DNA from: Archangium primigenium
GTDB lineage: Bacteria > Myxococcota > Myxococcia > Myxococcales > Myxococcaceae
Reading direction: 5' to 3'
NCBI RefSeq assembly: GCF_016904885.1
Contig: NZ_JADWYI010000001.1
Location: 8,613,224-8,677,223 of the forward strand
Length of the DNA: 64,000 bases
Part shown: piece after piece, positions 10,267-35,489 of the stretch
How the letters are laid out: each line of letters starts with the position of its first letter
Numbering within the stretch: the first letter of the stretch is position 1
Notes under the pieces: generated by a model
Seen by the model: the letters and a program-made list of their open reading frames with translations, nothing else
Told to the model about the DNA's origin: nothing
Databases searched by the model: none
Position numbers and translations under genes: made by a program

Positions 10267-12618
10267 ATGGTTTCCGCTGGCTCGATTCTCGCGCGCCGCC
10301 CGGCCCCTGGCCTCGTGGCCTCCCTGCTGCTGATCGTGATCCTCGGTGCTCCAGCGATCGCGGCGCCCGTCAAACAGGTGCCCCTGGGCGGGCGCGCCAT
10401 CCCCGTGGTGTCCAAGGGCGTGGTCTGCGGCCCGGTGACCGGGGGCTGGACCCTGTCCGCCGACGGGCGCTCCCTGCGCCCGCCCACCGCGGACACGGAG
10501 AACCTGGCGCGCACGTTGGACCTCAAGGTGTCCGAGGACGCCGCCCAGTGCGCGACCAGCCAGGAGACGGTGACCGTCATCGCCACCGGGGCCTTCCCGA
10601 ACCTCGACGCCGCGGCGAGCAGCTTCTTTCCGGACGAGGGCCGCCTGGAGCTCAAGGGCCAGCGGCTCCAGGACGTCGCCGTGGCCTGGTCCGCGCCCGC
10701 GCGCTCGTCGTCGGAGCCGCCCGCCTCGGGACAGGACGTCTGCCTCAACCCCACCTCCACCGGCAAGCAGTCCGAGTGTGTCGTGCCCTTGCACTCCGGG
10801 CTGCCCTCGGACGCGCAGCTCTACTGGGTGCCGCCCCAGGGCCGGCGCGGCCCCGACGTGACGACCTACGACGCCAACGGCACCCTGGTGGACGCCGAGA
10901 GCTTCGTCGTGCGCCCGGGCCGCACCGTGCTCACGCGGCCGCTGGTGAAGAACAATGGCGTGGACCTGGCCAAGGGACCGGGCCAGGTGACGCTCACCCA
11001 CCCCGAGTCCATCGCCTCCGTGGACTGCACGCCCGCGCGCTGCGAGACGAACGAGGGGGGCGTGGCCATCCGCGACGTGTCGGGCGTGGACACCGTCAAC
11101 CTGCGCATGCGCCTGGCGCCCCGGGTGGTGTTCGCCCGGGGGGAGGTCCTGGAGACCACGGTCACGCAGGCGCTGCCCATCCTGTCCTGCCCGCTGTCCG
11201 TGGTGGACGGCACGGCCGTGCGGGACGCGGAGGCCTCGGCGATCGTCGTGCGCATGGACCCCGCGTGCGGCTACGAGCCGCGCGACCTGCGCTGGCGCGT
11301 CAATGGAGACCGCGCGGGCGTGGGGCAGGTGGTGAAGGTCACCGACGGCGTCTACGTGCTGCTCAAGACCCAGGGCGTGTCGGGCCAGCAGGTCAACGTC
11401 ACCGCCACCAACGAGCCCGTGGGCCGCACGGTCGTGGCGTCGACGACGGCGAAGACCCTGCCCCTGCCCTTCCCGCGCGCCACGCTGGAGCTGCCCCAGC
11501 ACGGCCCCATCGACTTCATCCCCATCAACCGCCCGGCGCTCGTGCGGGTGGCCGGAGGCGGCGAGCTGGGCCGCTTCGTCGTGCACGCGCTGGAGGGCGC
11601 CTACCGCGTGAGCACGCAGGACCCGGCCGCCACCCAGGTGCTCGGCGACACGACCGCGGGCGGCTTCGTGGCGCTGCGCTTCGGCTACCGGGTGCCGTCG
11701 CTGCCCGGAGAGCTGGCCAGCACGGACCTGGCGCTCGTGGACGAGCGCGTGCAGCGCGCGGTGCGCGAGGCGAGCGTCCCGGCCAACGTCGGCAACCTGC
11801 TCGAGTTCGTGTGCGCGGACGGCAAGGGCCTGGACAAGGTCATCGAGCCGAGCAGCCCCCCCTTCCGCATCCCCTACGTCAGCCGCAACACCTGCCGGGT
11901 CATCATCCACCGCGAGCGGCTCACCCCCGAGGAGGGCGTCCAGGAGATCGTCCTGCGCATCGCCGTCACGAGCCAGGACGGGTCCGCCCGGGGCGAGAGC
12001 CAGCTGGAGCAGCGCATGCTCCTGCGGCCCGGAGGAGAGCAGCGGGTGCTGCCCATCCAGGGCAACCTGGCCCAGTTCGATCGCATCCTCGTGCAGGTGT
12101 CGCACGTGGCCGACGAGTCGCGCTACGCGCTGAGCACCACGGAGCGCACGGGCCTGCCCTCGGCGCAGTGGACGGCCATCGTGGAGGGCGGCTTCCTGCG
12201 GCTGTACGCCACGGGCGCGGTGCCCGCGGGGCTCTACCGGGCCACCACCCCGAGCGGCCAGCTCACGCTCAACTTCGGCGTGCTCTCGCGCCTGGTGCTG
12301 CTCAACCAGGAGGGCCAGGAGCGGCTCATCGGCATCGAGGTGGGGCTCATGGGCATGGGGCTCATCCCCCAGGCCACCAACACGCGCTTTCCGCCCACCC
12401 TGGCGCTCGTGGGCGGCCTGGGCCTGCGCATCCCGGTGGGCACGGGCGCGGCCATTGGCGTGCAGGCGTGGATCGCCCGCGAGTTCCGCGGCGACATCAC
12501 CCGCGACCTGCGCGCGGGCGAGGATCCCGCGACCACGGACCTGCGCGTGCCCGCGAGCAAGTGGTCCTTCATCTTCGGCCCCAGCATCTCCATCGGCAAC
12601 GTGGGCTTCAACCTGTGA
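10267..12618 (+). CDS. Large exported protein, possible outer-membrane C-terminal region
   Basis: 783 aa. Residues 1-32 form a Sec signal peptide (hydrophobic run LVASLLLIVILGAPAIA), so the mature protein is periplasmic or surface-located. The middle is rich in beta-strand-like segments with paired cysteines. The last 110 residues alternate hydrophobic and small residues (LIGIEVGLMGMGLIP, LALVGGLGLRIPVG, WSFIFGPSISIGNVGFNL) in the manner of amphipathic outer-membrane strands. No enzyme motif is visible and I do not recognise the family. It is divergent from the NRPS (106 bp between starts) and its stop overlaps the GTG of the next gene by 4 bp, so the two are co-translated. Confidence 0.8.
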   Translation: MVSAGSILARRPAPGLVASLLLIVILGAPAIAAPVKQVPLGGRAIPVVSKGVVCGPVTGGWTLSADGRSLRPPTADTENLARTLDLKVSEDAAQCATSQETVTVIATGAFPNLDAAASSFFPDEGRLELKGQRLQDVAVAWSAPARSSSEPPASGQDVCLNPTSTGKQSECVVPLHSGLPSDAQLYWVPPQGRRGPDVTTYDANGTLVDAESFVVRPGRTVLTRPLVKNNGVDLAKGPGQVTLTHPESIASVDCTPARCETNEGGVAIRDVSGVDTVNLRMRLAPRVVFARGEVLETTVTQALPILSCPLSVVDGTAVRDAEASAIVVRMDPACGYEPRDLRWRVNGDRAGVGQVVKVTDGVYVLLKTQGVSGQQVNVTATNEPVGRTVVASTTAKTLPLPFPRATLELPQHGPIDFIPINRPALVRVAGGGELGRFVVHALEGAYRVSTQDPAATQVLGDTTAGGFVALRFGYRVPSLPGELASTDLALVDERVQRAVREASVPANVGNLLEFVCADGKGLDKVIEPSSPPFRIPYVSRNTCRVIIHRERLTPEEGVQEIVLRIAVTSQDGSARGESQLEQRMLLRPGGEQRVLPIQGNLAQFDRILVQVSHVADESRYALSTTERTGLPSAQWTAIVEGGFLRLYATGAVPAGLYRATTPSGQLTLNFGVLSRLVLLNQEGQERLIGIEVGLMGMGLIPQATNTRFPPTLALVGGLGLRIPVGTGAAIGVQAWIAREFRGDITRDLRAGEDPATTDLRVPASKWSFIFGPSISIGNVGFNL

Positions 12619-19404: not shown

Positions 19405-22158
19405 CTAGGGGCCGAGCATCAGGGGCTCATCCAGGCCCATGCCCACGAAGGGGGCCCAGAAGTAGGGCTCGGGGTGAATGCGGCGCAGATCCTTCATCGC
19501 GAGGCGCAGGGCCTCGAGCCGACCGCGTCCCGCCTTCAGGTGGCCGTAGTAGGCCTCCATCAACTCGGCCGTGGAGTCATCCCGCACACTCCACAGGCTC
19601 GTCACGACCGTCTGTGCGCCCGCGATGCTCAGCGCCCGCCGCAAGCCGTAGACGCCCTGCCCCACGCGGATGTCGCCGCGACCCGTGTCACACGCGGAGA
19701 GCACCACCAGCTGCGTGCCCCACAGGTCCATGCCCGCCAATTCCAGGGAGGTGACGCGGGAGTCGGTTCCACGCTCGTTCGCGTTCGCCAACACCAGACC
19801 CGAGCGCAGCATGGGGTCATCCAATCGCACGGACTGGTTCATGCCGCCTGGTGGCTCGAAGACCCCGACCTTGCGCGCTCCCTGGGTGGACGCCGAGGCA
19901 TCCTGGATGAAAAAACCATGCGTGGCGATGTGCAACAGACTCGGCCGAGCCAATGCCAGCAGGGCATCCTTGGTCGCGTCCTTGCCCAACAAGAGCCGCG
20001 GGGTGAAGGGCGATGTCTCGAACAACGCCTGAATGGCGCGGGCCTCCTGAAGCGCTCCGGGAAGCTCGTCCCAGATACGCTTCGCGGATGTGGGCGAGGC
20101 GTCCGCACGCGTCGTGCGTGCCGCGTGAGTGGAGGCGGTCGGAGCCCTCGCCGAGCCATAGTCGGGCGCCGCCAGGATGACCAGCGCCTGGGAGCCTCGC
20201 TCCTCCGACCGGAAGGACAACACGTCCTTTCCCGAGGAAAGGTAGGAAATGTCGAAGGACTCCAACAAGACGTCGTGCCCATCATGGAGCGCATCGAATG
20301 GAATGAGCGACAGCTGCCCTTCGGGCGAAATGAAGAGCCGACGTGACTGGCCGAGCCACGGCTTGAGCGGAGCGAACACCTGTCGGTAAAGCGCCTTGGC
20401 TTCTGGAGAGTCACTCGATGTCCCGCTGTCCATGAGGGCCTTGTGAAAACGTGAGGCAGCTCCATTGATGACTTCGGCTTTTCCCAGGTCCACGGCCCTC
20501 GTGCGTCCATCGGGAAGCAGCAGCAGCGCGAAGTAGCGCCTGTCTTCGGGGTCCGGCCCCGGGGAGACGACGTACTGGACGATGGCACCATCCGCGGGCA
20601 AGCGCTTCGCCACCTCCGTCAGGAAATGGCCTGGGTCAGGATAGGCATACAGTGCGCGAAAAGGCAGGGAGTACTTCGCCAGTTCCGCTTCGAGTTCGCC
20701 CACCTGCACGCCGAGATCCTCCAAACGACGCGGGTACACATCCGCCGCGGCCACTCCAGGACCCGCGAGCGCCAACTGGCTCAACTGGGTGCGCAACCGA
20801 CGCAAGCGTGACAGGGACTCCTGATGAACCACGCCAAGACTCCGGTGGAGGATGCGCGAGGTATCCGCGAACTCCTCGCCGGAGCGGCCCTTCCGAAGAA
20901 ACGCGCTGGTCAGCACGAGTCGACGCACCCGCTCGTCATCCGCGTGTTCGAGGATCAAGTCGTAAAGTCGCTCCTCATCGACCCCCCGAATGCGCATCAC
21001 ACCGCTGATGCGTCCATCCGAGAGGCTCAGCACTTCCTGGCGCAGGTGCGTCTCGCTGATGTTGGAAGCCCGCTCCAACATCGGCAGGAGCCTGTCCAGA
21101 TGGGACACATCGGATGAACGGGATTCATCCGCATGGCTCCACTGCTCGATGGCGAACGCGAAATTGAAGAGCGTGGTCGCGACCTCGAGGTCCATAGACC
21201 CAAGCAGTGACTCCTGGAGTTCCAGCGCTTGAGAGAAGAGCCTCTCGGCCCGGGCGTGATCTCCCTGTCGACTGGCGAGCAGGGCCAGATCGCCGAGCAC
21301 GTTCGCTACATTGGAATGCTTCTCTCCGAACATCACCTCGAACATCTCGAGTGCCCGGGTCATGAGCCGTTCGGCCGCGAGGACCTCGCCTTGATCACCG
21401 AGGACCGCAGCCAGCGAATAGAGCACATTCGCATGGAGAAGCCCGTGCTGGCCAGGGTGCCGCTCGAGCCAAACGCGAGCTTGTTCGATGGCTTCCCGGG
21501 ACTCGGCCAGTCTCCACTGTTTGTAATGGAGTACCCCCAGGTTGTAGTAGGCGGAGGCCACGCCCGGATTCTCCTCGCCCAGGTGGCTCCGCCGCAGTTC
21601 GAGCACCTCCTTCATGAGCGACTCCGCCTGGGAGTAGTGGCCTTGATACTTGTAGAGTTCAGCGAGATTGCCGAGCGCGGGGGAGAGGCGGATGTCACTC
21701 TTGCCCAGAACACCGCGTTGATTTTCGATGGCCCGCTTGAACAAGAGCTCCGCCTGGGAATAGTTTCCTTGGTTCTTGTAAACGATGGCGAGATTGTTGA
21801 GCGAGGACGCGGTATCGAAGGCGCGAGGACCCAGCAGCCGCTCGTCAATGTCGAGCGCTCGCTTGAAGAGCGTCTCCGCCCGACTCAGTTCTCCTCTTTG
21901 CGACCACAGGCTGCCCAGCAAACCCAACGTATGCGAGACATCACTGTGCAGCTCGCCAAGTTCGGCTTCACGCAGCATCAAGGCTCGCTCGGCCAGCTCG
22001 GTGGCCGCCGCATATTGCCCCTCGTACATCAGAGCACGACCCCGCTTGTAGAAGTCTTCTGCGTCTCGCAACCGGGCTTCGCGGACACCCGACCCCAAGA
22101 AGTCCCCCGCTACACAACTCAGGATCAGCAGCACGAGTGTTTGCACAAACGGCTTCAC
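19405..22158 (-). CDS. TPR-CHAT protein (caspase-like peptidase), exported
   Basis: 917 aa from GTG 22158, chosen because GGAG sits 6 nt upstream and the protein then begins directly with a signal sequence (MKPFVQTLVLLILSC). The Cys could be a lipobox, though the -2 Leu is atypical. Residues 30-400 are tandem TPRs of the Nephrocystin/TPR-10 type (AEALFKRALDIDERLLG-like units). Residues about 640-917 are a CHAT domain with the predicted dyad His in LLHIATHGFF and Cys in VLSACDTGRGD. CHAT domains are clan CD proteases related to caspases and separases. The gene has visibly lower GC and more A/T-ending codons than its neighbours, suggesting recent transfer. Substrate unknown. Confidence 0.88.
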   Translation of the reverse strand: MKPFVQTLVLLILSCVAGDFLGSGVREARLRDAEDFYKRGRALMYEGQYAAATELAERALMLREAELGELHSDVSHTLGLLGSLWSQRGELSRAETLFKRALDIDERLLGPRAFDTASSLNNLAIVYKNQGNYSQAELLFKRAIENQRGVLGKSDIRLSPALGNLAELYKYQGHYSQAESLMKEVLELRRSHLGEENPGVASAYYNLGVLHYKQWRLAESREAIEQARVWLERHPGQHGLLHANVLYSLAAVLGDQGEVLAAERLMTRALEMFEVMFGEKHSNVANVLGDLALLASRQGDHARAERLFSQALELQESLLGSMDLEVATTLFNFAFAIEQWSHADESRSSDVSHLDRLLPMLERASNISETHLRQEVLSLSDGRISGVMRIRGVDEERLYDLILEHADDERVRRLVLTSAFLRKGRSGEEFADTSRILHRSLGVVHQESLSRLRRLRTQLSQLALAGPGVAAADVYPRRLEDLGVQVGELEAELAKYSLPFRALYAYPDPGHFLTEVAKRLPADGAIVQYVVSPGPDPEDRRYFALLLLPDGRTRAVDLGKAEVINGAASRFHKALMDSGTSSDSPEAKALYRQVFAPLKPWLGQSRRLFISPEGQLSLIPFDALHDGHDVLLESFDISYLSSGKDVLSFRSEERGSQALVILAAPDYGSARAPTASTHAARTTRADASPTSAKRIWDELPGALQEARAIQALFETSPFTPRLLLGKDATKDALLALARPSLLHIATHGFFIQDASASTQGARKVGVFEPPGGMNQSVRLDDPMLRSGLVLANANERGTDSRVTSLELAGMDLWGTQLVVLSACDTGRGDIRVGQGVYGLRRALSIAGAQTVVTSLWSVRDDSTAELMEAYYGHLKAGRGRLEALRLAMKDLRRIHPEPYFWAPFVGMGLDEPLMLGP

Positions 22159-25990: not shown

Positions 25991-27625
25991 TCAGAGCCAG
26001 CTGGGCGCGGTGCGTCCCAGGCCCGCCAGGGCCCGCTCGGCGGCCCGCACCCCGAACCAGTTGGCCTCCTCGAAGAGGCCCAGGCCGCCCAGGTCCGAGT
26101 GCGCGAAGTGCAGCACGTCGCCCAGGCTCTCCTGCGCGGCCTGGCGCGCGGGGCCCCAGAGGAAGCCCGGGACGGGCCGCACCATGGCGTGGCCCCAGCG
26201 CATGACCTCCAGGCGTTGGGCGCTCGCGGCGAGACCCCGGTGGGCCGGGAGCAGGTCCGCCATCACCAGCCCCTCCCAATCGGCATAGCTCGCGGACAGG
26301 GCCTTCTGGCGCTCGGCCTTCATGTCCAGGCCCGCCATGGGCAGGTACCAGGTGAGCACCGTGGGGCCGCGCTCGTCCTGGCGCGCGAGCTGGTGCGTGG
26401 CCACCACGTAGCCCAGGCTCCGGCTCTCGTAGAGGACGTTGTCCCAGGCGAGGGGAAAGCCGTGGGACCTCGGCGCCTCGGACAACGTGAGGTTGGCCAC
26501 CACCCAGGGCCCGTACTGGAAGGCGTCCAGCCACTCGGGACGCCGCTGCCGCCAGGGAGCCACCACGTGGGCGGCCACGAAGCGGGGACAGGCCAGCACC
26601 ACCTGCCGCGCCCGCCAGGCCCAAGGCCGACCCGTGGCCGCCTCCAGCGCGTCCACCCGGCAGCCGCCCGCCTCCGGCTCCACGGAGTGCACCAGCACGC
26701 CGGGCTCCACCTGCCCCGCGGGCAGCGCGGACAGGAGCTGGCGCACCAGCCGGCCATTGCCCTCGGGCCAGCTCAGGAAACCCTCGCTGCGCTCGCCTCG
26801 CCCGTCCTGCCGCGCGGCGAAGTACCAGATGCCCGCCCACGCCGACACGCCCTCGGCCGTGGTGCCGTAATCGTCCCGGCACGCGTAGTCCACGAGCCAG
26901 CGCAGCCGCCGCGAGCGGAAGCCCTCGCGCTCGAGCCACTGGGCCATGGTGAGCGCGTCCAGGGCCGTCCACTCGGCGTCGTCGCTGGAGAGCGCCGTGG
27001 GCACCGCGAAGGCCTTGCGGCCCCGGGCATCCCGCGCCGCCGCGAAGGCGTTCATCCGGGACTCGAAGCGCGCGAGCTCCGCCAGGTCCTCCGCGCTCGC
27101 CCCGGCGCGCAGGTACAGGCCCTCGTACCACTCGCCCCGGTAGAAGAGCCGCTCCTCGGGCTCGCGCACGAGCAGCTCCTCGTCGAAGAGGGGCTGGCCC
27201 GTGTCGTCCACGCCCGTCACCGCGTCCATCTCGCGCAACAGCCGCATCACCGGCCCGGTGTCCCGCAGCGGCGCGGGCAGGTAGTGCGCGCCCCAGGGGA
27301 AGGCGGACACCGCGTTCTTCCCCGCGCGCGCCGTGCCGCCCGCCTCCGTGTCCAGCTCCAGCACGCGCACGTCCCGCACGCCCGCGGCCGCCAGCCGCCA
27401 CGCCGCGCTCAGGCCCGCGGCCCCCGCGCCCACCACCAGCACGTCCACCGTCTGGAGTTCGGCCGCGCGCGGCAAGGGAGCGCCGCGCAGCCGGTGCCCC
27501 GTGTCCACCACCCGGTCCACCACGCCCCCGGGCACGGGCGCGCGCGGCGTCCGATCGCGGCAGGCGCTCGTCGCCACCGCCGAGCCGAGGAACGCGGCGA
27601 TGAGCTCGCGCCGCTTCAGTTCCAC
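25991..27625 (-). CDS. FAD-dependent amine-oxidase-like oxidoreductase, Tat lipoprotein
   Basis: 544 aa, GTG start 27625 overlapping the upstream stop by 10 bp. The N-terminus KRRELIAAFLGSAVATSAC combines a twin-arginine signal with a lipobox Cys, so the folded flavoprotein is probably exported by Tat and lipid-anchored. The Rossmann motif VLVVGAGAAGLSAAWRLAAAG and ELDTEAGG (FAD ribose Glu) follow, then GKNAVSAFPWGAHYLPAP. The C-terminal FAD-binding stretch reads FAHSDLGGLGLFEEANWFGVRAAE. The fold is that of flavin amine oxidases/NAD(P)-binding-8 proteins. As the last gene of an operon with SpeD and an aminopropyltransferase-like protein, a polyamine-type amine is the obvious candidate substrate; that is inference. 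Confidence 0.87.
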   Translation of the reverse strand: MELKRRELIAAFLGSAVATSACRDRTPRAPVPGGVVDRVVDTGHRLRGAPLPRAAELQTVDVLVVGAGAAGLSAAWRLAAAGVRDVRVLELDTEAGGTARAGKNAVSAFPWGAHYLPAPLRDTGPVMRLLREMDAVTGVDDTGQPLFDEELLVREPEERLFYRGEWYEGLYLRAGASAEDLAELARFESRMNAFAAARDARGRKAFAVPTALSSDDAEWTALDALTMAQWLEREGFRSRRLRWLVDYACRDDYGTTAEGVSAWAGIWYFAARQDGRGERSEGFLSWPEGNGRLVRQLLSALPAGQVEPGVLVHSVEPEAGGCRVDALEAATGRPWAWRARQVVLACPRFVAAHVVAPWRQRRPEWLDAFQYGPWVVANLTLSEAPRSHGFPLAWDNVLYESRSLGYVVATHQLARQDERGPTVLTWYLPMAGLDMKAERQKALSASYADWEGLVMADLLPAHRGLAASAQRLEVMRWGHAMVRPVPGFLWGPARQAAQESLGDVLHFAHSDLGGLGLFEEANWFGVRAAERALAGLGRTAPSWL

Positions 27626-29112
27626 CGCCGCCACTCCTCCTCGTAGTAGTGCACGAGCACCTGGTTGTTGAGCCGGTTGACCTCCGCGGGCAGGGGGCTC
27701 ATGTCCGCGGGGAAGTGGAAGAGCGTGTCCAGCGTGTCCTCGGACAGGAAGCGCAGGCCCTCGGCCAGGGGACGGCGGGGAGCCGCGGCCTCGTGGGCCA
27801 CCAGCACGTAGCCCCACTCCCCGAAGGACGGCACCAGCGCGTGGTAGGGGTGCGTCCAGAAGCCCGCCGCCCGGAGCGTCGTGTCCACGCACCAGAAGGA
27901 GCGCCGGGCGTACAGCGGCGAGGTGCTCTGGATGACGGCCACGCCGTCCGACGCCAGCCGCCGCTTGAGCAGCCGGTAGAAGCCCGTGGTGTAGAGCTTG
28001 CCCAGGGCGAAGTTGTTGGGGTCCGGGAAGTCCACCACGATGACGTCCCAGTGGCTCGTGTCCTCGCGCAGGAACTGCATCGCGTCCGTGTTGAGCACAC
28101 GCATGCGCGGATCCTCGAGCGCGCGGCCGTTGAGCTCCGCCAATTCGTTCCAGCGCAGCGCGAGCCCCGTCATCGCCGGATCCAGGTCCACGAGCGTCAG
28201 GTGCTTGACCTCCGGGTACTTGAGGATCTCCCGCGCCGCGAGCCCATCCCCGCCGCCGAGCACCAGCACCCGCTCGAGCTTGCCGGCGCGCGTGACGGCC
28301 GGATGCACGAGGGCCTCGTGGTAGCGGTACTCGTCCACGCTGGCGAACTGCAGGTTGCCATTGAGGTAGAGCGAGAAGCCCCGCTTGCCGCGCGTGAGCA
28401 CGATGCGCTGGTAGGGCGAGCTCGTCGCGTGCACCACCTCGTCGGAGAAGAGGTGCTCCTCGGAGAAGTTGTTCAGCCGCTCGCCCATCACCAGGCCCGC
28501 CACGAGGAAGAGGCTGAGCAGCACCGCCTTGATGCGCAGGCGGTTCGGGTGGGCCAGCACCGGCTGGAGCAGCCACGTGCTCCACAGGCCCACCAGCGCG
28601 TTGAGCAGACCGAACAGGAGCGACGTGCGCACCAGGCCCAGCTTCGGCACGAACAGCAGCGGAAAGCTGATGCTCGCGGCCAGCGCGCCCAGGTAGTCGA
28701 ACGTCAGCACCTGGCTGACCAGGTCCTTGAATTGGAGCTCGTCCTTGAGCAGGCGCAGGAGAAGCGGAATCTCCAGCCCCACCAGGGTGCCGATGAGCAG
28801 CACGCTGCCGTAGAGCACCACCCGGAAGACGTCCGTGAAGGCGAAGGTGAGGAAGAGCAGCGGCGCGCAGCAGCCGCCGATGAGCGCCACGGCCAGCTCC
28901 ACCTCCACGAAGCGCTGCGCCAGTCCGCGCTCCACGAAGCGCGACAGCCAGCTGCCGATGCCCATGGCGAACAGGTAGCAGCCAATCACCGTGGAGAACT
29001 GGGTGATGGAGTCGCCGAGCAGATAGCTCGCCAGCGCGCCCACGATGAGCTCGTAGATGAGCCCACACGTGGCGATGACGAGCACGGTGACGAAAAGGAG
29101 CTTCTTGTTCAT
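27616..29112 (-). CDS. Membrane-anchored spermidine-synthase-like aminopropyltransferase
   Basis: 498 aa. Residues 1-215 contain about seven transmembrane helices (LLFVTVLVIATCGLIYELIVGA onward). Residues 230-498 are a spermidine synthase-like domain: YQRIVLTRG, LYLNGNLQFASVDEYRYHEAL, RVLVLGGGDGLAAREILKYP (dcAdoMet/AdoMet loop), LVDLDPAM, DVIVVDFPDPNN and LGKLYTTGFY. The PDPNN in place of the usual TDP/SDP Asp-Pro and the membrane anchor set it apart from housekeeping SpeE. The ATG overlaps the DUF350 stop (TGATG), so translation is coupled. With SpeD in the same operon supplying decarboxylated AdoMet, an aminopropyl transfer at the membrane is likely. Confidence 0.88.
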   Translation of the reverse strand: MNKKLLFVTVLVIATCGLIYELIVGALASYLLGDSITQFSTVIGCYLFAMGIGSWLSRFVERGLAQRFVEVELAVALIGGCCAPLLFLTFAFTDVFRVVLYGSVLLIGTLVGLEIPLLLRLLKDELQFKDLVSQVLTFDYLGALAASISFPLLFVPKLGLVRTSLLFGLLNALVGLWSTWLLQPVLAHPNRLRIKAVLLSLFLVAGLVMGERLNNFSEEHLFSDEVVHATSSPYQRIVLTRGKRGFSLYLNGNLQFASVDEYRYHEALVHPAVTRAGKLERVLVLGGGDGLAAREILKYPEVKHLTLVDLDPAMTGLALRWNELAELNGRALEDPRMRVLNTDAMQFLREDTSHWDVIVVDFPDPNNFALGKLYTTGFYRLLKRRLASDGVAVIQSTSPLYARRSFWCVDTTLRAAGFWTHPYHALVPSFGEWGYVLVAHEAAAPRRPLAEGLRFLSEDTLDTLFHFPADMSPLPAEVNRLNNQVLVHYYEEEWRRWN

Positions 29113-29345
29113 CAACCCGAGATGGCGGCGGCCACGATGATGGCCAGCCCCAGGATGAAGGAACCCATCACGATGCCGAGCGCCGTGTTCTGATCGACCT
29201 CGATCTCCTTGTGCACGTCGAACGGCATGATGAGCCGGAACACGTACAGCCCCGCCACGAACACCGCCAACCCCACCAGCGAGTACACGAGGCTCGCCAG
29301 CAGGTTGTCCACGTTCACCACCACGGCCAGCACACCCATCGGCAT
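29112..29345 (-). CDS. DUF350 small membrane protein
   Basis: 77 aa from ATG 29345, with two transmembrane segments: LLASLVYSLVGLAVFVAGLYVF and ALGIVMGSFILGLAIIVAAA, separated by a short charged loop (DVHKEIEVDQNT). Length, the two-helix hairpin and the KEIE.DQNTALGI loop fit DUF350, the family of E. coli YjfL. Its start overlaps the stop of the 52-aa gene (TGATG) and its own stop overlaps the next ATG, so it is translated as part of a chain. Function of the family is not established; it recurs beside polyamine- and glutathionylspermidine-type enzymes. Confidence 0.87.
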   Translation of the reverse strand: MPMGVLAVVVNVDNLLASLVYSLVGLAVFVAGLYVFRLIMPFDVHKEIEVDQNTALGIVMGSFILGLAIIVAAAISG

Positions 29346-29503
29346 CACTTCCCTCCCATGAAGCTTCCACTGCGATAGCGCGCCGCGCCGACCGCCCCCC
29401 GGGCGCCGTCGGACTTGCCGCGCTGAGCGCCGCTGAACGGCTCGAAGCCGAGCACCGCCATGAGGCCGTAGAGCAGCACGATGATTCCACCGAAGTACTT
29501 CAT
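29345..29503 (-). CDS. 52-aa membrane-anchored Gly/Ala/Arg-rich peptide
   Basis: A gene too short for routine ORF calling, supported by an excellent ribosome-binding site (AGGGGAGGA, 4 nt before ATG 29503) and exact TGATG coupling to the DUF350 gene. Residues 1-20 are one hydrophobic segment (MKYFGGIIVLLYGLMAVLGF). The rest is a polar, Gly/Ala/Arg/Ser tail (AQRGKSDGARGAVGAARYRS) ending FMGGK. No Cys and no known domain. It lies between the DUF4178 protein and DUF350 in a six-gene operon containing SpeD and an aminopropyltransferase-like enzyme, so it might be a substrate or scaffold for modification at the membrane; that role is inference. Confidence 0.8.
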   Translation of the reverse strand: MKYFGGIIVLLYGLMAVLGFEPFSGAQRGKSDGARGAVGAARYRSGSFMGGK

Positions 29504-29515
29504 CCCGTCCTCCCC

Positions 29516-31405
29516 TCAACTCCCCTGCTTCAAGTTGCTCTCGCTCCAGCGCGAGCTCTCGAACAGGGAGGAGCGCAGCAGGTTCCACGCGGGAACGATG
29601 AGCAACAGCATCAAGGAACAGAACAGCCACAGAAAGCGCGGCGAGTCGCTCACGAGCCTGAGCCGGTAGTTGGGCAGCTGCTTGCTGAAGCTCGCCTGGG
29701 TGCGCAGCACGTAGCGTCCCGCCTCCACCGAGGACAGGTAATCCGTGGTCTCGAGGCCGCCCTCGCTCCACGCGCCGTCCGAGTCCCTCCCCGTGTAGAG
29801 GCTCACCTCCTCGTAGAAGCCGATGACCTCCTGGGTGTCCTGGTTGAGCAGCTCGCCCTCCACGCCCAGCCAGCTGTTGTTCACGTTCGCGCCCAACGAC
29901 ACCCGCAGGTTGCCGCGCTGATGGATCTCGAAGGGCTCGCTGAACCACACGGCCGTGGCCGTGCCGGAGTGGGCGTCCGGCGCCAGCGCCACCGTCTGAT
30001 GGAGCACCACCTCGTTGGCCGCGCGCGAGTTCACCCCGATGTAGATGAAGAGCAGGAACGCGGCCCACAGGCCGACCCACCGCCACGCGGTGGCGCTCCG
30101 GTGCGGGTTGGGCTGGCTCGGGGCGATGCCGTGGGGCGTGGGCAGCGGCTCCTTCAAGCCAAAGGCCTCGCGCACCACCTCGGGCGACAGGTATTCGCCC
30201 CGGGTGTACGAGACCTCCGTCTCCGTCTCCTCCTCGTTCACCGAGAGCGGCGGCGCCACGAACTCCTCGGCCGTCGCCGTCTCGCCCGCCCGCACCGCCC
30301 AGTAGAACTCCCCCAGCACCAGCTCCGTGACGGCCGTCACGCGCTGGAAGGCCACGAAGCGCTCGCCCCCCAGGTGCGCGGCCACGCCCGAGCGGGCCGA
30401 CACCTCGCCCGCGTCCAGGGGCTTGAGGAACACCCAGTGCCCGTTGGAGCTCATCAGCCAGGTGAAGCCGCGCCCGCGGTTGAAGAGGAGGTACTCCTCC
30501 CAGGGGTAGCGCACCCCTTCCACCTCGCACGAGCGCACCATCATGCCGATGCAGATCCACTCCGCGGCGTCGAGCGTGCCCCGGGCCCCCAGCTCCAGCG
30601 CGAAGGGGTGGTCGGGCTTCTGGAGCAGCTCGAGGAAGGCGAGCCGGCCATTGCGGCCCACCTCCAGGAGCGCGCCGCAGTAGGGACACGCCACGCGCTT
30701 GCTCTGGTCCGGGGCGCGCAGCTCCAGGGGGCCATTGCACTCGGTGCAACGCGCCTGGACCAGCGCCACCTGCTTCACCCGGGGCCGGAGCTGATCCGGC
30801 GGGATGCCCAGCTCGGTGAGCTTCAGCTTCCGGCCGATGAAGACCTCGGGCTCCTTCGCCCAGGCGCCGAAGTCGAGCGTGACGAAGACGCCACCCGGGC
30901 CCGAGGCATCCACGTAGTGGCTGTCCGCGCTCGGGTCCACGTCGTGGGGGAGCTGGCCCTCGGCGGCCACCACCCGACCATGGCCCCGCTCCTCCACCGC
31001 CAGCCGATGTCCCCGGAGGCTGAAGCGGCGGCCGGGCGCGAAGTCCTGGAGCTTCAGCTCCGGCTCCAGGCCCTCGGCGTACAGGAGGTAGAAGGCGCCC
31101 TCGGCCTCGCTCAACCAGCCCGTGCGCCCGTCATCGAACTCCACGTACCACTCGTCCCAGGGCCCCGCGCCATGGTCCTTCTGCAGGTGGCCCACCACCC
31201 GGTAGGCCTCGCGGCCCACGCGGCCCTCCACCCCGAGCCGCAGGGGCGAGTCGGTGTCGACGACGGCGCCCACCTTGCCGTGGGCCTCCAGGTCCAACCC
31301 CTTCTTGGCCACCACCGTCTGGCAATGGCCGCACACCACCACCTGCGCCGACCCCGCGGTGAACTCCACCGCCGCGCCACACGCGGGACATTTCCCCTGC
31401 GTCAC
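29516..31405 (-). CDS. Zinc-ribbon protein with two DUF4178-like domains and C-terminal membrane helices
   Basis: 629 aa from GTG 31405, overlapping the SpeD stop in GTGA. It begins with a zinc ribbon (CPACGAAVEF then VCGHCQ), followed by a DUF4178-like beta domain (LGVEGRVGREAYRVVGHLQ, WDEWYVEFDDGRTGWLSEAEG). A second ribbon (CTECNGPLEL, CPYCGALLEV) precedes another similar domain (YPWEEYLLFNRGRGFTWLMSSNGHW). About residue 440 onward there is a transmembrane helix (WVGLWAAFLLFIYIGVNS), a beta-rich extracytoplasmic region and a final helix (FLWLFCSLMLLLIVPAWNLL). The N-terminal part is therefore cytosolic. DUF4178 recurs in gene clusters with DUF350 and spermidine synthase-like proteins; the molecular role is unknown. 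Confidence 0.85.
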   Translation of the reverse strand: MTQGKCPACGAAVEFTAGSAQVVVCGHCQTVVAKKGLDLEAHGKVGAVVDTDSPLRLGVEGRVGREAYRVVGHLQKDHGAGPWDEWYVEFDDGRTGWLSEAEGAFYLLYAEGLEPELKLQDFAPGRRFSLRGHRLAVEERGHGRVVAAEGQLPHDVDPSADSHYVDASGPGGVFVTLDFGAWAKEPEVFIGRKLKLTELGIPPDQLRPRVKQVALVQARCTECNGPLELRAPDQSKRVACPYCGALLEVGRNGRLAFLELLQKPDHPFALELGARGTLDAAEWICIGMMVRSCEVEGVRYPWEEYLLFNRGRGFTWLMSSNGHWVFLKPLDAGEVSARSGVAAHLGGERFVAFQRVTAVTELVLGEFYWAVRAGETATAEEFVAPPLSVNEEETETEVSYTRGEYLSPEVVREAFGLKEPLPTPHGIAPSQPNPHRSATAWRWVGLWAAFLLFIYIGVNSRAANEVVLHQTVALAPDAHSGTATAVWFSEPFEIHQRGNLRVSLGANVNNSWLGVEGELLNQDTQEVIGFYEEVSLYTGRDSDGAWSEGGLETTDYLSSVEAGRYVLRTQASFSKQLPNYRLRLVSDSPRFLWLFCSLMLLLIVPAWNLLRSSLFESSRWSESNLKQGS

Positions 31406-31752
31406 GCCTCCCCCCCCCGTGGCAGCTCCCGCACGTGGCAGGACGTCGCGCCCAGGTGCCGCGCCAGCAGCGACTCGAAGTCCGGACGCGCGCGCACCCG
31501 GCAGCAATAGACATTGAGCGCGGCGAAGCCGTGCTCGGGAAAGGTGTGGAGGGCCAGATGGCTCTCGGCCAGCAGCGCCAGTCCCGTGACCCCTCCCGGC
31601 TCCGGGAAGACATGCCACTGCGGCTGGCCGATGACCCGCAGGTCCAGCAGCACGACGAGCTCCTCGAACAGGGCCGCGAGGCTCCGGGCGTCCTTGAGAC
31701 GCTCGGGCATGCACCCCCGCACATCCACCAGCCATTCCTGTCCGGTCGTCAG
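31402..31752 (-). CDS. speD: S-adenosylmethionine decarboxylase proenzyme (SpeD, prokaryotic type), probable CTG start
   Basis: 116 aa. The self-cleavage site is LAESHLALHTFPEHGFAALNVYCC: cleavage at Glu-Ser generates the pyruvoyl group, and His and Cys of the family are retained. Product is decarboxylated AdoMet, the aminopropyl donor. Start: the only in-frame GTG (31728) would delete half of the first beta strand (EWLVDVRGC). CTG 31752 is preceded by GGGGAGG with 7-nt spacing and gives TTGQEWLVDVRGCMPERL, matching the family start, so I annotate CTG. The in-frame stop upstream is near 31786. This is the first gene of the coupled minus-strand operon ending with the amine oxidase. Confidence 0.9.
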   Translation of the reverse strand: MTTGQEWLVDVRGCMPERLKDARSLAALFEELVVLLDLRVIGQPQWHVFPEPGGVTGLALLAESHLALHTFPEHGFAALNVYCCRVRARPDFESLLARHLGATSCHVRELPRGGEA

Positions 31753-31850: not shown

Positions 31851-32858
31851 ATGGCCTCGAAGGATCTCCGTCCCTCCCCCCCGCCGCCCCCCCCTGGCCC
31901 CGTCCCCACCCCCGCCGCGCCGGGCGTGATCGCGCGGATGCTCCAGTCCCTGCGCGCCCTGCCCGAGGCCCGGCACAACCCGTCGGCGGCGCCGGGCAGC
32001 ACGGGCCTGGCGGGCTGGTTCAAGGCCGAGACGCCCCCGCCTCTCGAGGACGTCACCGCGCGCTTCCACGCGGTCTACGCGCGCGTGCGGGACAACGAGG
32101 CGGTGCTGCCGGACGAGGCGCGGCGCCACCAGTATCTGCTCATCAAGGGCATGCTGGGGGACGAGCTGCCCGGCTACCTGGACGACAACCAGCGCCGCCT
32201 GGAGGAGCGTGGCCTGGAGACGCGCGGGGTGGCGGTGGACACCGAGGGCCGGCTGCTGGACAACGTGGCCGTGGTGCGCGAGGCGCTGCTGGATGCCCGG
32301 CACTTCCGCCGCTCGGTGGTGCTCGTGGGGCACAGCAAGGGGGGCGTGGAGGCCTTGAGCGCGCTCGCGCTCCACCCGGAATTGCGCGAGGTCGTGCGCG
32401 CGGTGGTGACGCTCCAGGCGCCCTACGGCGGCTCGGTCATCGCCAACGATCTCGTGGCGTCGCCCGCGCTCCGGCGGCTGGTGGACGTGGCCTTCCCCTC
32501 GCTCTTCCAGGGCGATGGCGCCTCGGTGGAGGACCTGTCCTACGCCCGGCGCCAGGACTTCGTGCGCCGCCATCCCTATCCGGCCGGCATCCCCACCGTG
32601 TCCCTGGCCACCTCACGGCTGTCCCGGCGCTCGGTGCTGCGCCCGCTGTGCGCCTATGTCCACGAGCGCTACGGCTGGGGCTGTGATGGCCTGGTGGCCG
32701 CGCTGGACGCGGAGATCCCCGGCTCGCGCGTGGTGCGGCTCGGCGACATGGACCACGCCGAGGCGGCCATGACCGGCCTGCCCGGCTTCTCCAACTACTT
32801 CCCGAGCGCCCTCACCGAGACGATGGTCGCCCTGGCGCTCGACGCCCCGCGCTTTTGA
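31851..32858 (+). CDS. Alpha/beta-hydrolase (lipase-like)
   Basis: 335 aa. A Pro-rich lead (residues 8-25) is followed by a helical lid-like region (RMLQSLRALPEARHNPSAAPG). The hydrolase core follows: YLLIKGMLGDELPGYL, the nucleophile elbow VVLVGHSKGGVEAL (G-x-S-x-G, Ser about 163), LQAPYGGSVIANDL, and near the C-terminus MDHAEAAM with the probable catalytic His after VRLGDMDH. No signal peptide, so cytosolic. Substrate unknown. It is divergent from speD (98 bp between starts) and lies 12 bp upstream of a lipoprotein gene that has its own AAAGGA ribosome site. Confidence 0.85.
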   Translation: MASKDLRPSPPPPPPGPVPTPAAPGVIARMLQSLRALPEARHNPSAAPGSTGLAGWFKAETPPPLEDVTARFHAVYARVRDNEAVLPDEARRHQYLLIKGMLGDELPGYLDDNQRRLEERGLETRGVAVDTEGRLLDNVAVVREALLDARHFRRSVVLVGHSKGGVEALSALALHPELREVVRAVVTLQAPYGGSVIANDLVASPALRRLVDVAFPSLFQGDGASVEDLSYARRQDFVRRHPYPAGIPTVSLATSRLSRRSVLRPLCAYVHERYGWGCDGLVAALDAEIPGSRVVRLGDMDHAEAAMTGLPGFSNYFPSALTETMVALALDAPRF

Positions 32859-34078: not shown

Positions 34079-34139
34079 TTTGCTTCGCATATGACTTCCC
34101 TTGGAAATCATCACGCGAAGTCCCCAGGGGGTTGTTGCG

Positions 34140-35489
34140 ATGGCGACGAATCCGACGGAGCAGGAGCAGCGGGCGACGGGCTGTCCCATGAAGCAGGCGC
34201 CGCACGGCGGTCCGGTGGTGCTCGACCGGGAGGACCCCCGGTTCCTCGCCGGGGCCCACGAGGCTTACACGCACTTGCGCGAGCTGGGCCCCGTCGTGCG
34301 GGCCCACTTCGGTCGCGGGCTCACGGACGACCTCGAGGCCCCGGGCACGCCGCCCGGCGGTGAGCGCTTCTTCGTGACGCGCTACGACGAGGCCGTGGAG
34401 ACGCTGCTCGACGACCGCGTCTCCTCGGACTTCCGCACCGGGATGACGCCCGAGCAGCGCGGACGGCTGGCCTCCATGCCCGAGGAGCTCAAGCCCCTGG
34501 CGTACAGCATGCTGATGCTGGACCCCCCGGACCACACGCGGCTGCGCAAGCTCGTCCAGCCGAGCTTCACCGCCCGGGCCATGGAGACGCTGAGGCCGCG
34601 CATCCAGCGCATCATCGACCAGCGGCTGGACGAGGTGGAGCGCGAGGCCGCCATGCGGGGCGAGGCCGTGTCGGAGCGCCGCATGGACCTCATCCGCGCC
34701 TTCGCCTACCCGGTGCCCATCACCGTCATCAGCGACATGCTCGGCATCCCCGACGAGGACCGCGCCCAGGTGCACACGTGGGCCGAGGGCCTCCTGTCCG
34801 AGGACGGCGCGAAGGAGATGAACGAGCAGCGGCGCGCCGTGCTGCGCACGTTCAACGGGTACCTGACGGGCCTGTTCGAGCGCAAGCGGCGCACGCCCGG
34901 CGAGGACATGATCAGCCAGATGCTCGTGGTCCAGGAGGAGGGAGACCGCTTGAGCGAGCAGGAGATGGTCTCCATGGTGTTCATCCTCTTCTTCGCCGGG
35001 CACGTCACCACGGTGAACCTCATCGGCAACGGCGTGGTGGCGCTGCTCACGCACCCGGAGCAGCTCGCGCGCCTGCGCGCGGACCCGGCGCTCGCCAAGG
35101 GCGCCGTCGAGGAGACCCTGCGCTACGCGGGGCCGGTGGACTACATGAGCACGCCGCGCATCGTCCGCGAGGACATGGAGATCGCCGGGTGCCCCGTCGC
35201 CCGGGGCGAGAAGCTGACGGTGGGGCTCGCCTCGGCCAACCGCGACCCCCGGCACTTCGCCAACCCCGACGCCTTCGACATCACCCGGCCGGACGCCCAC
35301 CGCAACATCGCCTTCGGCAAGGGCATCCACGTGTGTATCGGCGCTCCCCTCGCCCGCCTGGAGGGCCAGCTCGCCTTCGAGACCCTGTTCCGCCGCTATC
35401 CCGACCTGCGGCTCGCGGTGCCCGTCGAGTCGCTGCGCCTGGGCACCAGCAGCCTGCGCGGCTACACACAGGTGCCCGTCCTCTTCTGA
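34140..35489 (+). CDS. Cytochrome P450 (first of a tandem pair)
   Basis: 449 aa from ATG 34140; the reading frame also offers TTG 34101, less likely. Class I bacterial P450 with all hallmarks: LMLDPPDHTRLRKLV (C-helix HTRLR), I-helix FFAGHVTTVNLIGN with the acid/alcohol pair, K-helix EETLR, ASANRDPRHFANPDAFD, and the heme loop FGKGIHVCIGAPLARLEG with the Cys thiolate ligand. It has no fused reductase and no ferredoxin gene nearby, so redox partners must be supplied elsewhere. The next gene is a close paralogue in the same orientation 90 bp away, a likely tandem duplication. Substrate cannot be inferred. Confidence 0.95.
   Translation: MATNPTEQEQRATGCPMKQAPHGGPVVLDREDPRFLAGAHEAYTHLRELGPVVRAHFGRGLTDDLEAPGTPPGGERFFVTRYDEAVETLLDDRVSSDFRTGMTPEQRGRLASMPEELKPLAYSMLMLDPPDHTRLRKLVQPSFTARAMETLRPRIQRIIDQRLDEVEREAAMRGEAVSERRMDLIRAFAYPVPITVISDMLGIPDEDRAQVHTWAEGLLSEDGAKEMNEQRRAVLRTFNGYLTGLFERKRRTPGEDMISQMLVVQEEGDRLSEQEMVSMVFILFFAGHVTTVNLIGNGVVALLTHPEQLARLRADPALAKGAVEETLRYAGPVDYMSTPRIVREDMEIAGCPVARGEKLTVGLASANRDPRHFANPDAFDITRPDAHRNIAFGKGIHVCIGAPLARLEGQLAFETLFRRYPDLRLAVPVESLRLGTSSLRGYTQVPVLF

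Follow-up and report, generated by a model that had tools for sequence, protein, structure and literature searches.

The analysed stretch of DNA (the window) comprises 64,000 nucleotides of the 9.5-Mb genome of Archangium primigenium (G000) and contains, at positions 25991-31752, six genes, all on the minus strand, which combine polyamine-type enzymes with membrane proteins and a peptide of 52 amino acids (aa). A first-pass annotation of the window had described them as a single operon with overlapping junctions, and all genes, strands, and junctions were recovered as first described. Profile searches against Pfam and NCBIfam placed five of the six proteins in named families, the exception being the 52-aa peptide, which gave no match at an E value of ≤0.1 and, hence, none to the DUF4247-type domain (which we take to be PF14042). 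Here, we are concerned with the C-terminal lysine of this peptide and of its counterparts in other bacteria, and with the question of whether it serves as the acceptor for the seven-transmembrane (7-TM) aminopropyltransferase (APT) of the same operon. The features are as follows.

31402..31752, minus strand: SpeD, an S-adenosylmethionine (AdoMet) decarboxylase of class-1b type (PF02675, 90.7 bits; TIGR03330, 80.7 bits, above the curated cut-off of 75.65)
29516..31405, minus strand: DUF4178 protein (PF13785, 117 bits in two stretches) with two CxxC zinc-ribbon-like motifs and membrane segments near the C-terminus
29345..29503, minus strand: 52-aa single-TM peptide, MKYFGG...RYRSGSFMGGK, the proposed acceptor (conserved slot, terminal lysine, selection at the protein level as pN<pS)
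29444..29494, minus strand: TM segment of the peptide, residues 4-20, predicted from hydropathy
29348..29350, minus strand: AAG codon specifying the C-terminal lysine, which is proposed to be modified (Lys-ended tails in 93/93 pairs, see below)
29112..29345, minus strand: DUF350 (YjfL-type) membrane protein, 77 aa (PF03994, 57.4 bits)
27616..29112, minus strand: 7-TM polyamine APT, 498 aa (NF002956, 676 bits, cut-off 472), catalytic domain at about 225-498 with D361 and D364
25991..27625, minus strand: flavin amine oxidase, 544 aa, with a twin-arginine translocation (Tat)-like RR motif and a lipobox (PF01593, 48.7 bits, cut-off 19.8)

The SpeD and DUF4178 genes share a GTGA overlap, the peptide gene meets that of DUF350, and the latter that of the APT, in a TGATG junction, and the APT and oxidase genes overlap by 10 bp. 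The open reading frame (ORF) of the peptide begins 12 nt past the DUF4178 stop codon and is equipped with its own GGGGAGG ribosome-binding-like site. The start of SpeD is most likely CTG at 31752, since it follows a GGGGAGG site and the TIGR03330 match sets in at residue 2; the alternative is GTG at 31728, the earliest of the common start codons. The 7-TM architecture that the first-pass annotation had assigned to the APT was borne out both by the NF002956 score and by a structure model (mean predicted local distance difference test [pLDDT] score of 89.2), in which seven spans, helix 128-181 being counted as two, are followed by the catalytic domain; the motifs and the PF01593 match likewise agree with its proposal of a Tat-type oxidase.

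Comparison with related genomes indicates that the small ORF represents a conserved gene, mostly under purifying selection. The APT was found at an E value of ≤1e-60 in 31 of the 59 genomes searched, the home genome included, and within these 31 genomes a small single-TM ORF ending in Gly-Gly-Lys lies between DUF4178 and DUF350 in all 22 adjacent pairs. Among 17 tails of 53 codons, the proportion of nonsynonymous differences was lower than that of synonymous ones (pN<pS) in 125 of 136 ungapped pairs, with a median ratio of 0.57 and ratios of 0.14-0.5 for most close pairs; this set includes L057 and L113, which have 53 codons by coincidence, are not position-by-position homologues of the others, and cause several of the ratios above 1. 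An ORF in the same slot recurs in many phyla, so that the neighbourhood survey suggested with the first-pass annotation came out in favour of conservation. The accompanying statement that the peptide is absent from normal gene calls does not hold generally, as the counterpart on a Novosphingobium plasmid is annotated in RefSeq as hypothetical protein WP_193828724.1.

The set was widened to 117 loci with 7 plasmid regions and with 80 loci from named genomes (the best 80 of at least 572 relatives), which belong, by record title, to nine phyla, namely, Myxococcota, Acidobacteriota, Gemmatimonadota, Planctomycetota, Pseudomonadota, Bacteroidota, Spirochaetota (Leptospiraceae), Verrucomicrobiota, and Elusimicrobiota. 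DUF4178-DUF350 pairs, 93 in all, are present in 92 of the 117 loci, no such pair being recognised in the other 25, and each of the 93 pairs is accompanied by a tail with lysine as its last residue: 77 were picked by a rule blind to that residue, 3 were found by eye, and 13 are fused to DUF4178. The blind rule chose a small TM ORF in 78 pairs, and 77 of these end in lysine (GK in 60, HK in 16, and VK in 1); the sole miss, at L080, was a spurious upstream ORF, the second candidate there ending RYHK. The peptides of L062 (HGGK) and L047 (YGGK), which fall outside the limits of the rule, were seen by eye. In the 13 fused cases, all from Burkholderiales, a separate peptide is lacking, and it is the DUF4178 protein that terminates in a TM segment followed by ...RSSGGSYGGYSSGG[GS]HK. 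Terminal lysine was found in just 3 of the 322 other gene products at the same loci (DUF350, 1/96; APT, 0/118; oxidase, 1/60; SpeD, 1/48). Additional tails, not picked blind, were obtained by scanning for GK/HK ends (L034, L052, and L104) or by eye (L036 and L037), and the tail of L099, ending ...FLHK, was missed by that scan. The lysine end is retained where the tail is part of a DUF4178 fusion and also on unrelated lipoproteins in APT operons. This pattern is new relative to the first-pass annotation, which had proposed the peptide as a possible acceptor or scaffold and had not seen the terminal lysine; the acceptor role gains strong circumstantial support from it, with the transfer of an aminopropyl group being what we infer.

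Two loci of this survey merit separate mention. In Burkholderia stagnalis (L034), the lysine-ended product is a 244-aa protein, ...SGYSSYGSHK, encoded near the APT (minus strand, 10981-11715 of the reverse strand). L042, titled Comamonas sp. KCTC 72670, carries an operon of myxobacterial type with an APT 76% identical to that of the window, and this record is likely mislabelled or contaminated.

A nucleotide-level explanation can be considered at this point, in which the end of the peptide gene also serves as the Shine-Dalgarno sequence of DUF350 (GGAGGGAAGTGATG in the window and its close relatives) and reads as Gly-Gly-Lys by accident. We rejected it, leaving it a vanishing chance, on several grounds: (i) the lysine codon is AAA in 35 and AAG in 42 of the 77 blind-picked tails, and the preceding codon is CAC or CAT in 16; (ii) a separate GGAG-like site lies downstream in L097, L100, and L032; and (iii) the fused tails and the lipoproteins share the same lysine end.

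The search was extended to two further lineages. In Gammaproteobacteria, a 7-TM APT scored over the cut-off in 14 of 229 genomes, and 14 regions from 13 of these were extended, 11 of which contain a lysine-ended tail, namely, two small peptides (L151, ending VYHK, and L153, ending HTGK), one DUF4178 fusion (L152, ending GSHK), and eight longer proteins (L154-L157 and L160-L163) ending RGK, SGK, or GGK, seven with a visible lipobox; these tails were picked by eye from the listings, except those of L151 and L152, which came from the scan for GK/HK ends. In Bacteroidota, the APT was found in 22 of 296 genomes, with a lysine-ended tail in 19 of the 22 loci (21 of them new, since L226 is from the same genome as L113). 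These comprise 13 small peptides ending HK, a DUF4178 fusion (L232, ending SGSHK) that is independent of the Burkholderiales fusions, and five longer proteins ending GK, in which a lipobox was seen in L247 only, the N-termini of L244 and L245 lying beyond the stretch. The remaining loci are L240 and two hybrid operons, L216 and L217, which are discussed below.

The tail and the APT also keep company when their genes are separated. The APT stands alone in seven myxobacterial genomes, and in six of these a DUF4178-peptide-DUF350 unit is found elsewhere, with each peptide ending GFMGGK; a search of the seventh (G009) found no DUF4178. In total, DUF4178 was shown in 28 of the 31 APT genomes (of the other three, G009 had none, and G006 and G027 were not included in the DUF4178 search), compared with full-length DUF4178 in 1 of 28 relatives lacking the APT, G028, where it is accompanied by a GGK peptide. 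APT and DUF4178 are, hence, phyletically coupled among these relatives. Partial DUF4178 matches occur in two APT-less myxobacterial genomes (L260 and L261), with neither DUF350 nor a lysine-ended tail in the stretch, and adjoin an ORF that resembles, by eye, a nucleoside diphosphate kinase.

A different terminus is found where the polyamine-handling enzyme is an ATP-grasp ligase. RefSeq gives YgiC and YjfC of E. coli the name peptide--spermidine ligase, which reportedly goes back to the work of Pederick and colleagues of 2023. The YgiB/YgiC and YjfM/YjfC systems (DUF1190 plus ligase) resemble the window operon in combining an envelope protein that has a flexible Gly-rich tail with an adjoining polyamine-handling enzyme, and for yjf also with DUF350, but differ in having the ligase instead of an APT and in tails that end in Gly-Gly (SMGG in YgiB and HWGG in YjfM), an end that suits attachment at the carboxylate rather than at an amine. 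Of 16 tail-like proteins encoded beside or one gene away from a GspS-like ligase, 10 end GG, 3 SS, 2 GS, and 1 HA, and none ends in lysine. These 16, picked by eye and not blind, are the E. coli two, gammaproteobacterial L167 and L168, and twelve from Bacteroidota (L120 and L169-L179); left out were the Myxococcota GspS loci L189-L194, the neighbours of which the crude gene caller did not resolve, the weaker GspS matches L180-L188 and L195-L215, and the DUF1190 loci L165 and L166, which end GG and have no ligase visible in the stretch. Two genomes carry both systems with matching termini: G069 (L117 tail, FFHK; ligase partner L120, GFGG) and G464 (L228 tail, FYHK; ligase partner L218, GFGG). 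GspS was present in 1 of 12 queried genomes having Lys-tail loci, and a GspS-like ligase is absent among the window operon proteins scanned, with one weak PF03738 match (47.7 bits) elsewhere in G000. The window tail, which ends GGK, is unlike the Gly-Gly or small-residue ends of the GspS and DUF1190 systems.

The hybrids L216 and L217 (18 kb each) are related Bacteroidota loci, where the genes for a membrane protein with the end SYGG, a GspS-like ligase, and SpeD run divergently from that of a 7-TM APT. They break a strict association of the APT with lysine, yet tie the APT to tail decoration, and they invite the explanation that the acceptor is a polyamine already borne by the protein, where the ligase would load the amine and the APT extend it, the lysine tail being a simplified form of the same arrangement. 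With two related loci in its favour, and GspS so rare among the queried Lys-tail genomes, we regard this as improbable to a high degree.

The enzymes themselves were compared with their soluble relatives. Membership of NF002956 predicts that the window APT would transfer an aminopropyl group to a polyamine, and its catalytic part is nearest, by both sequence and fold, to thermospermine synthase 6bq2 and the Thermus thermophilus enzymes 1uir and 3anx, soluble spermidine/thermospermine synthases that share the catalytic fold and the Asp pair (Asp361 and Asp364, both invariant among 116 APTs) and have no TM domain. The acceptor side of the APT, in contrast, appears changed relative to soluble SpeE, as judged from the alignment. 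The motif there is DFPDP in the window enzyme and D-x-T/S-D-P in the soluble synthases, Pro363 of this DxPDP motif occurring in 36/36 7-TM APTs (7 of these rows score 250-350 bits) and in 0/15 soluble SpeE. Moreover, the Tyr at position 430, present in 12/15 soluble SpeE, is lost in 36/36 7-TM APTs, Arg263 is found in 25/36 versus 0/15, and position 372 is K or R in 34/36 and V, G, S, or A in 13/15 of the soluble enzymes. The proximity to enzymes acting on free polyamines favours the explanation that this is a plain polyamine operon, whose SpeD and APT would supply free spermidine, or some longer polyamine, at the membrane. Transport or sensing of polyamines would then fall to the peptide and DUF350, and the lysine would be a fixed residue for recognition or gating and not a substrate. 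This explanation, however, gives no reason for lysine ends on unrelated proteins or for other ends beside GspS, and a further SpeE-like match, shorter and lacking the TM part, was found in 5 of the 14 gammaproteobacterial genomes that have a 7-TM APT (in one case with an internal TAG); we consider this explanation unlikely, though by no means negligible. The model of the oxidase (pLDDT 91.3) adopts the fold of MAO, putrescine oxidase, PPOX, and spermidine dehydrogenase (Foldseek matches 8p84, 2yg3, and 7d9g), and its sequence matches begin with N1-acetylpolyamine oxidase (E value, 1e-4) and L-amino acid oxidases. Among 48 relatives scored, 43 have the Tat-like RR motif and 28 have both this motif and a lipobox.

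With regard to topology, the Lys and Arg residues of the APT are concentrated in the loops that follow helices 2, 4, and 6, which, under the positive-inside rule, would place its N-terminus inside and the catalytic domain outside. In the 77 blind-picked tails, the N-side was more positive than the 15 residues following the TM segment in 46, equal in 21, and less positive in 10. Fused tails come after a single TM segment, downstream of the zinc-ribbon domains, which should be cytoplasmic in the DUF4178 fusions. We infer that the tail, the APT domain, and the oxidase are all extracytoplasmic. The composition of the tails, which are basic and Gly/Ser-rich (on average 5.5 Lys/Arg versus 2.6 Asp/Glu), would also agree with the lysine tail being a signal or tether, either bound by charge to anionic lipid, peptidoglycan, or the DUF350 channel or targeted by, for example, a transpeptidase, with the APT and oxidase tuning competing free polyamines; in the portions available to us, Ravi et al. 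2024 (PMC11237479) propose that systems of this kind monitor polyamines or the aminopropylation of other substrates. Charge, however, demands neither lysine over arginine nor the last position, and the blind picks contain only GK, HK, and one VK (n = 77), which makes this account distinctly unlikely.

Taken as a set, the genes suggest the following route. Decarboxylated AdoMet would be produced by SpeD in the cytoplasm, and the 52-aa peptide, with its flexible Gly/Ser/Arg/Tyr/His-rich tail, would be the membrane-anchored acceptor, held by a membrane core of DUF350 and DUF4178. The 7-TM APT would move one or more aminopropyl groups onto the side-chain amine of the terminal lysine, which resembles putrescine in being a four-carbon amine, yielding N6-(3-aminopropyl)lysine (+57.06 Da per aminopropyl group); outside the cell, the Tat-type oxidase may then trim or oxidise the product. 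The output of the operon would be a polyamine-tipped envelope peptide, which may function in envelope stress. Of the readings considered here, the most likely is that the APT aminopropylates the terminal lysine, because this accounts for the residue and its position, for its persistence when the carrier changes, and for the other termini found next to a ligase that uses the carboxylate; on the sequence evidence, we judge it to be about evenly balanced between right and wrong. A broader proposal, which we advance tentatively and would sooner doubt than assert, is that a C-terminal code is shared across some nine phyla, in which a Gly/His-Lys tail is aminopropylated by an outward-facing 7-TM APT and an ATP-grasp ligase attaches spermidine to the carboxylate of a Gly-Gly or small-residue tail. 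The 52-aa peptide would then be the minimal acceptor of the lysine type, and the Tat oxidase would either convert the product to an aldehyde or remove it.

Several points weigh against aminopropylation of the terminal lysine: (i) should the catalytic domain of the APT be outside, decarboxylated AdoMet would have to pass the membrane, with the 7-TM part or DUF350 as a conceivable path, and this is a weak point; (ii) the only PF02675 match in the home genome is the SpeD of the operon, and no carboxynorspermidine decarboxylase (NspC) was found there over the cut-off, so that SpeD and the APT could constitute the plain spermidine pathway of this organism, as the plain polyamine operon would have it; (iii) Arg263, considered along with Lys372 as a carboxylate clamp, was rejected as a general one, being absent from the 7 lipoprotein-type APTs; (iv) G028 has the tail and no APT at an E value of ≤1e-60; (v) no tail was seen in the fetched stretch of 13 members of the 117-locus set, several of which lie on short contigs (L019, L030, L043, L046, L059, L060, L064, L065, L068, L070, L071, L072, and L095), of the gammaproteobacterial regions L158, L159 (at a contig end), and L164, or of L240 in Bacteroidota; (vi) within about 8 kb on each side, the hybrids L216 and L217 have no recognised DUF350, DUF4178, or lysine tail; and (vii) Rv2599, the DUF4247 counterpart in Mycobacterium tuberculosis, which is predicted to be extracellular, seems not to end in lysine, a cloning primer being read as a GDDA end (PMC3726780, from the part of that paper available).

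Part of this gene set is already in print. Ravi et al. 2024 described, in the sections available, polyamine cassettes linked to PspA or band-7 proteins and composed of a 7TM spermidine synthase, DUF350, DUF4178, AdoMet decarboxylase, and polyamine oxidase, together with cassette lipoproteins, and raised the aminopropylation of other substrates as a possibility (PMC11237479). The window operon has the same enzyme set and the same membrane core; it differs in that band-7 and PspA-CesT genes were not seen in the operon or among its neighbours, as judged at this locus from ORF reading and family scans. In those same sections, the small peptide and the C-terminal lysine are not mentioned, and the addition made here is, to that extent, the peptide and its terminal lysine. 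Among the results inspected in a search of open-licence literature, no paper dealt with the peptide or with aminopropylation of a C-terminal lysine in bacteria. A chemical precedent is found in diatom silaffins, the lysine side chains of which bear aminopropyl units and for which a bacterial-type AdoMet decarboxylase and an aminopropyltransferase were proposed as the enzymes, according to the part of PMC3820600 available; these lysines are, by contrast, internal, the proteins are eukaryotic and serve silica deposition, and the enzyme is unproven.

If the terminal lysine is indeed aminopropylated, the operon would represent a new kind of envelope-protein modification, that is, aminopropylation of a protein lysine in bacteria that is assigned to a specific enzyme and confined to a single residue. 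It would differ from hypusine on eIF5A, in which a lysine side chain becomes a polyamine-like chain by transfer of an aminobutyl group from spermidine by deoxyhypusine synthase, in that an aminopropyl group would be attached and the lysine is terminal, not internal. The same reading would provide a substrate for orphan families so far known by neighbourhood only (the 7-TM APT, DUF350, DUF4178, and the small peptide) and would account for the presence of SpeD in an envelope-stress operon. The pattern of lysine versus Gly-Gly ends, in turn, would allow the type of modification to be predicted from the last residue of the tail protein.

The operon is followed downstream by a gene for a large exported protein, as judged by ORF reading. 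On the other side, a divergent gene for a PGAP1-like alpha/beta hydrolase (31851-32858, plus strand) adjoins SpeD, and a cytochrome P450-like ORF, recognised by eye from the ORF list, lies at 34101-35489 (plus strand). The GC content falls to 62.4% at 20001-22000, compared with about 69-77% in the other 2-kb steps of the window (66-68% in a few), and this segment is a possible recent insertion.

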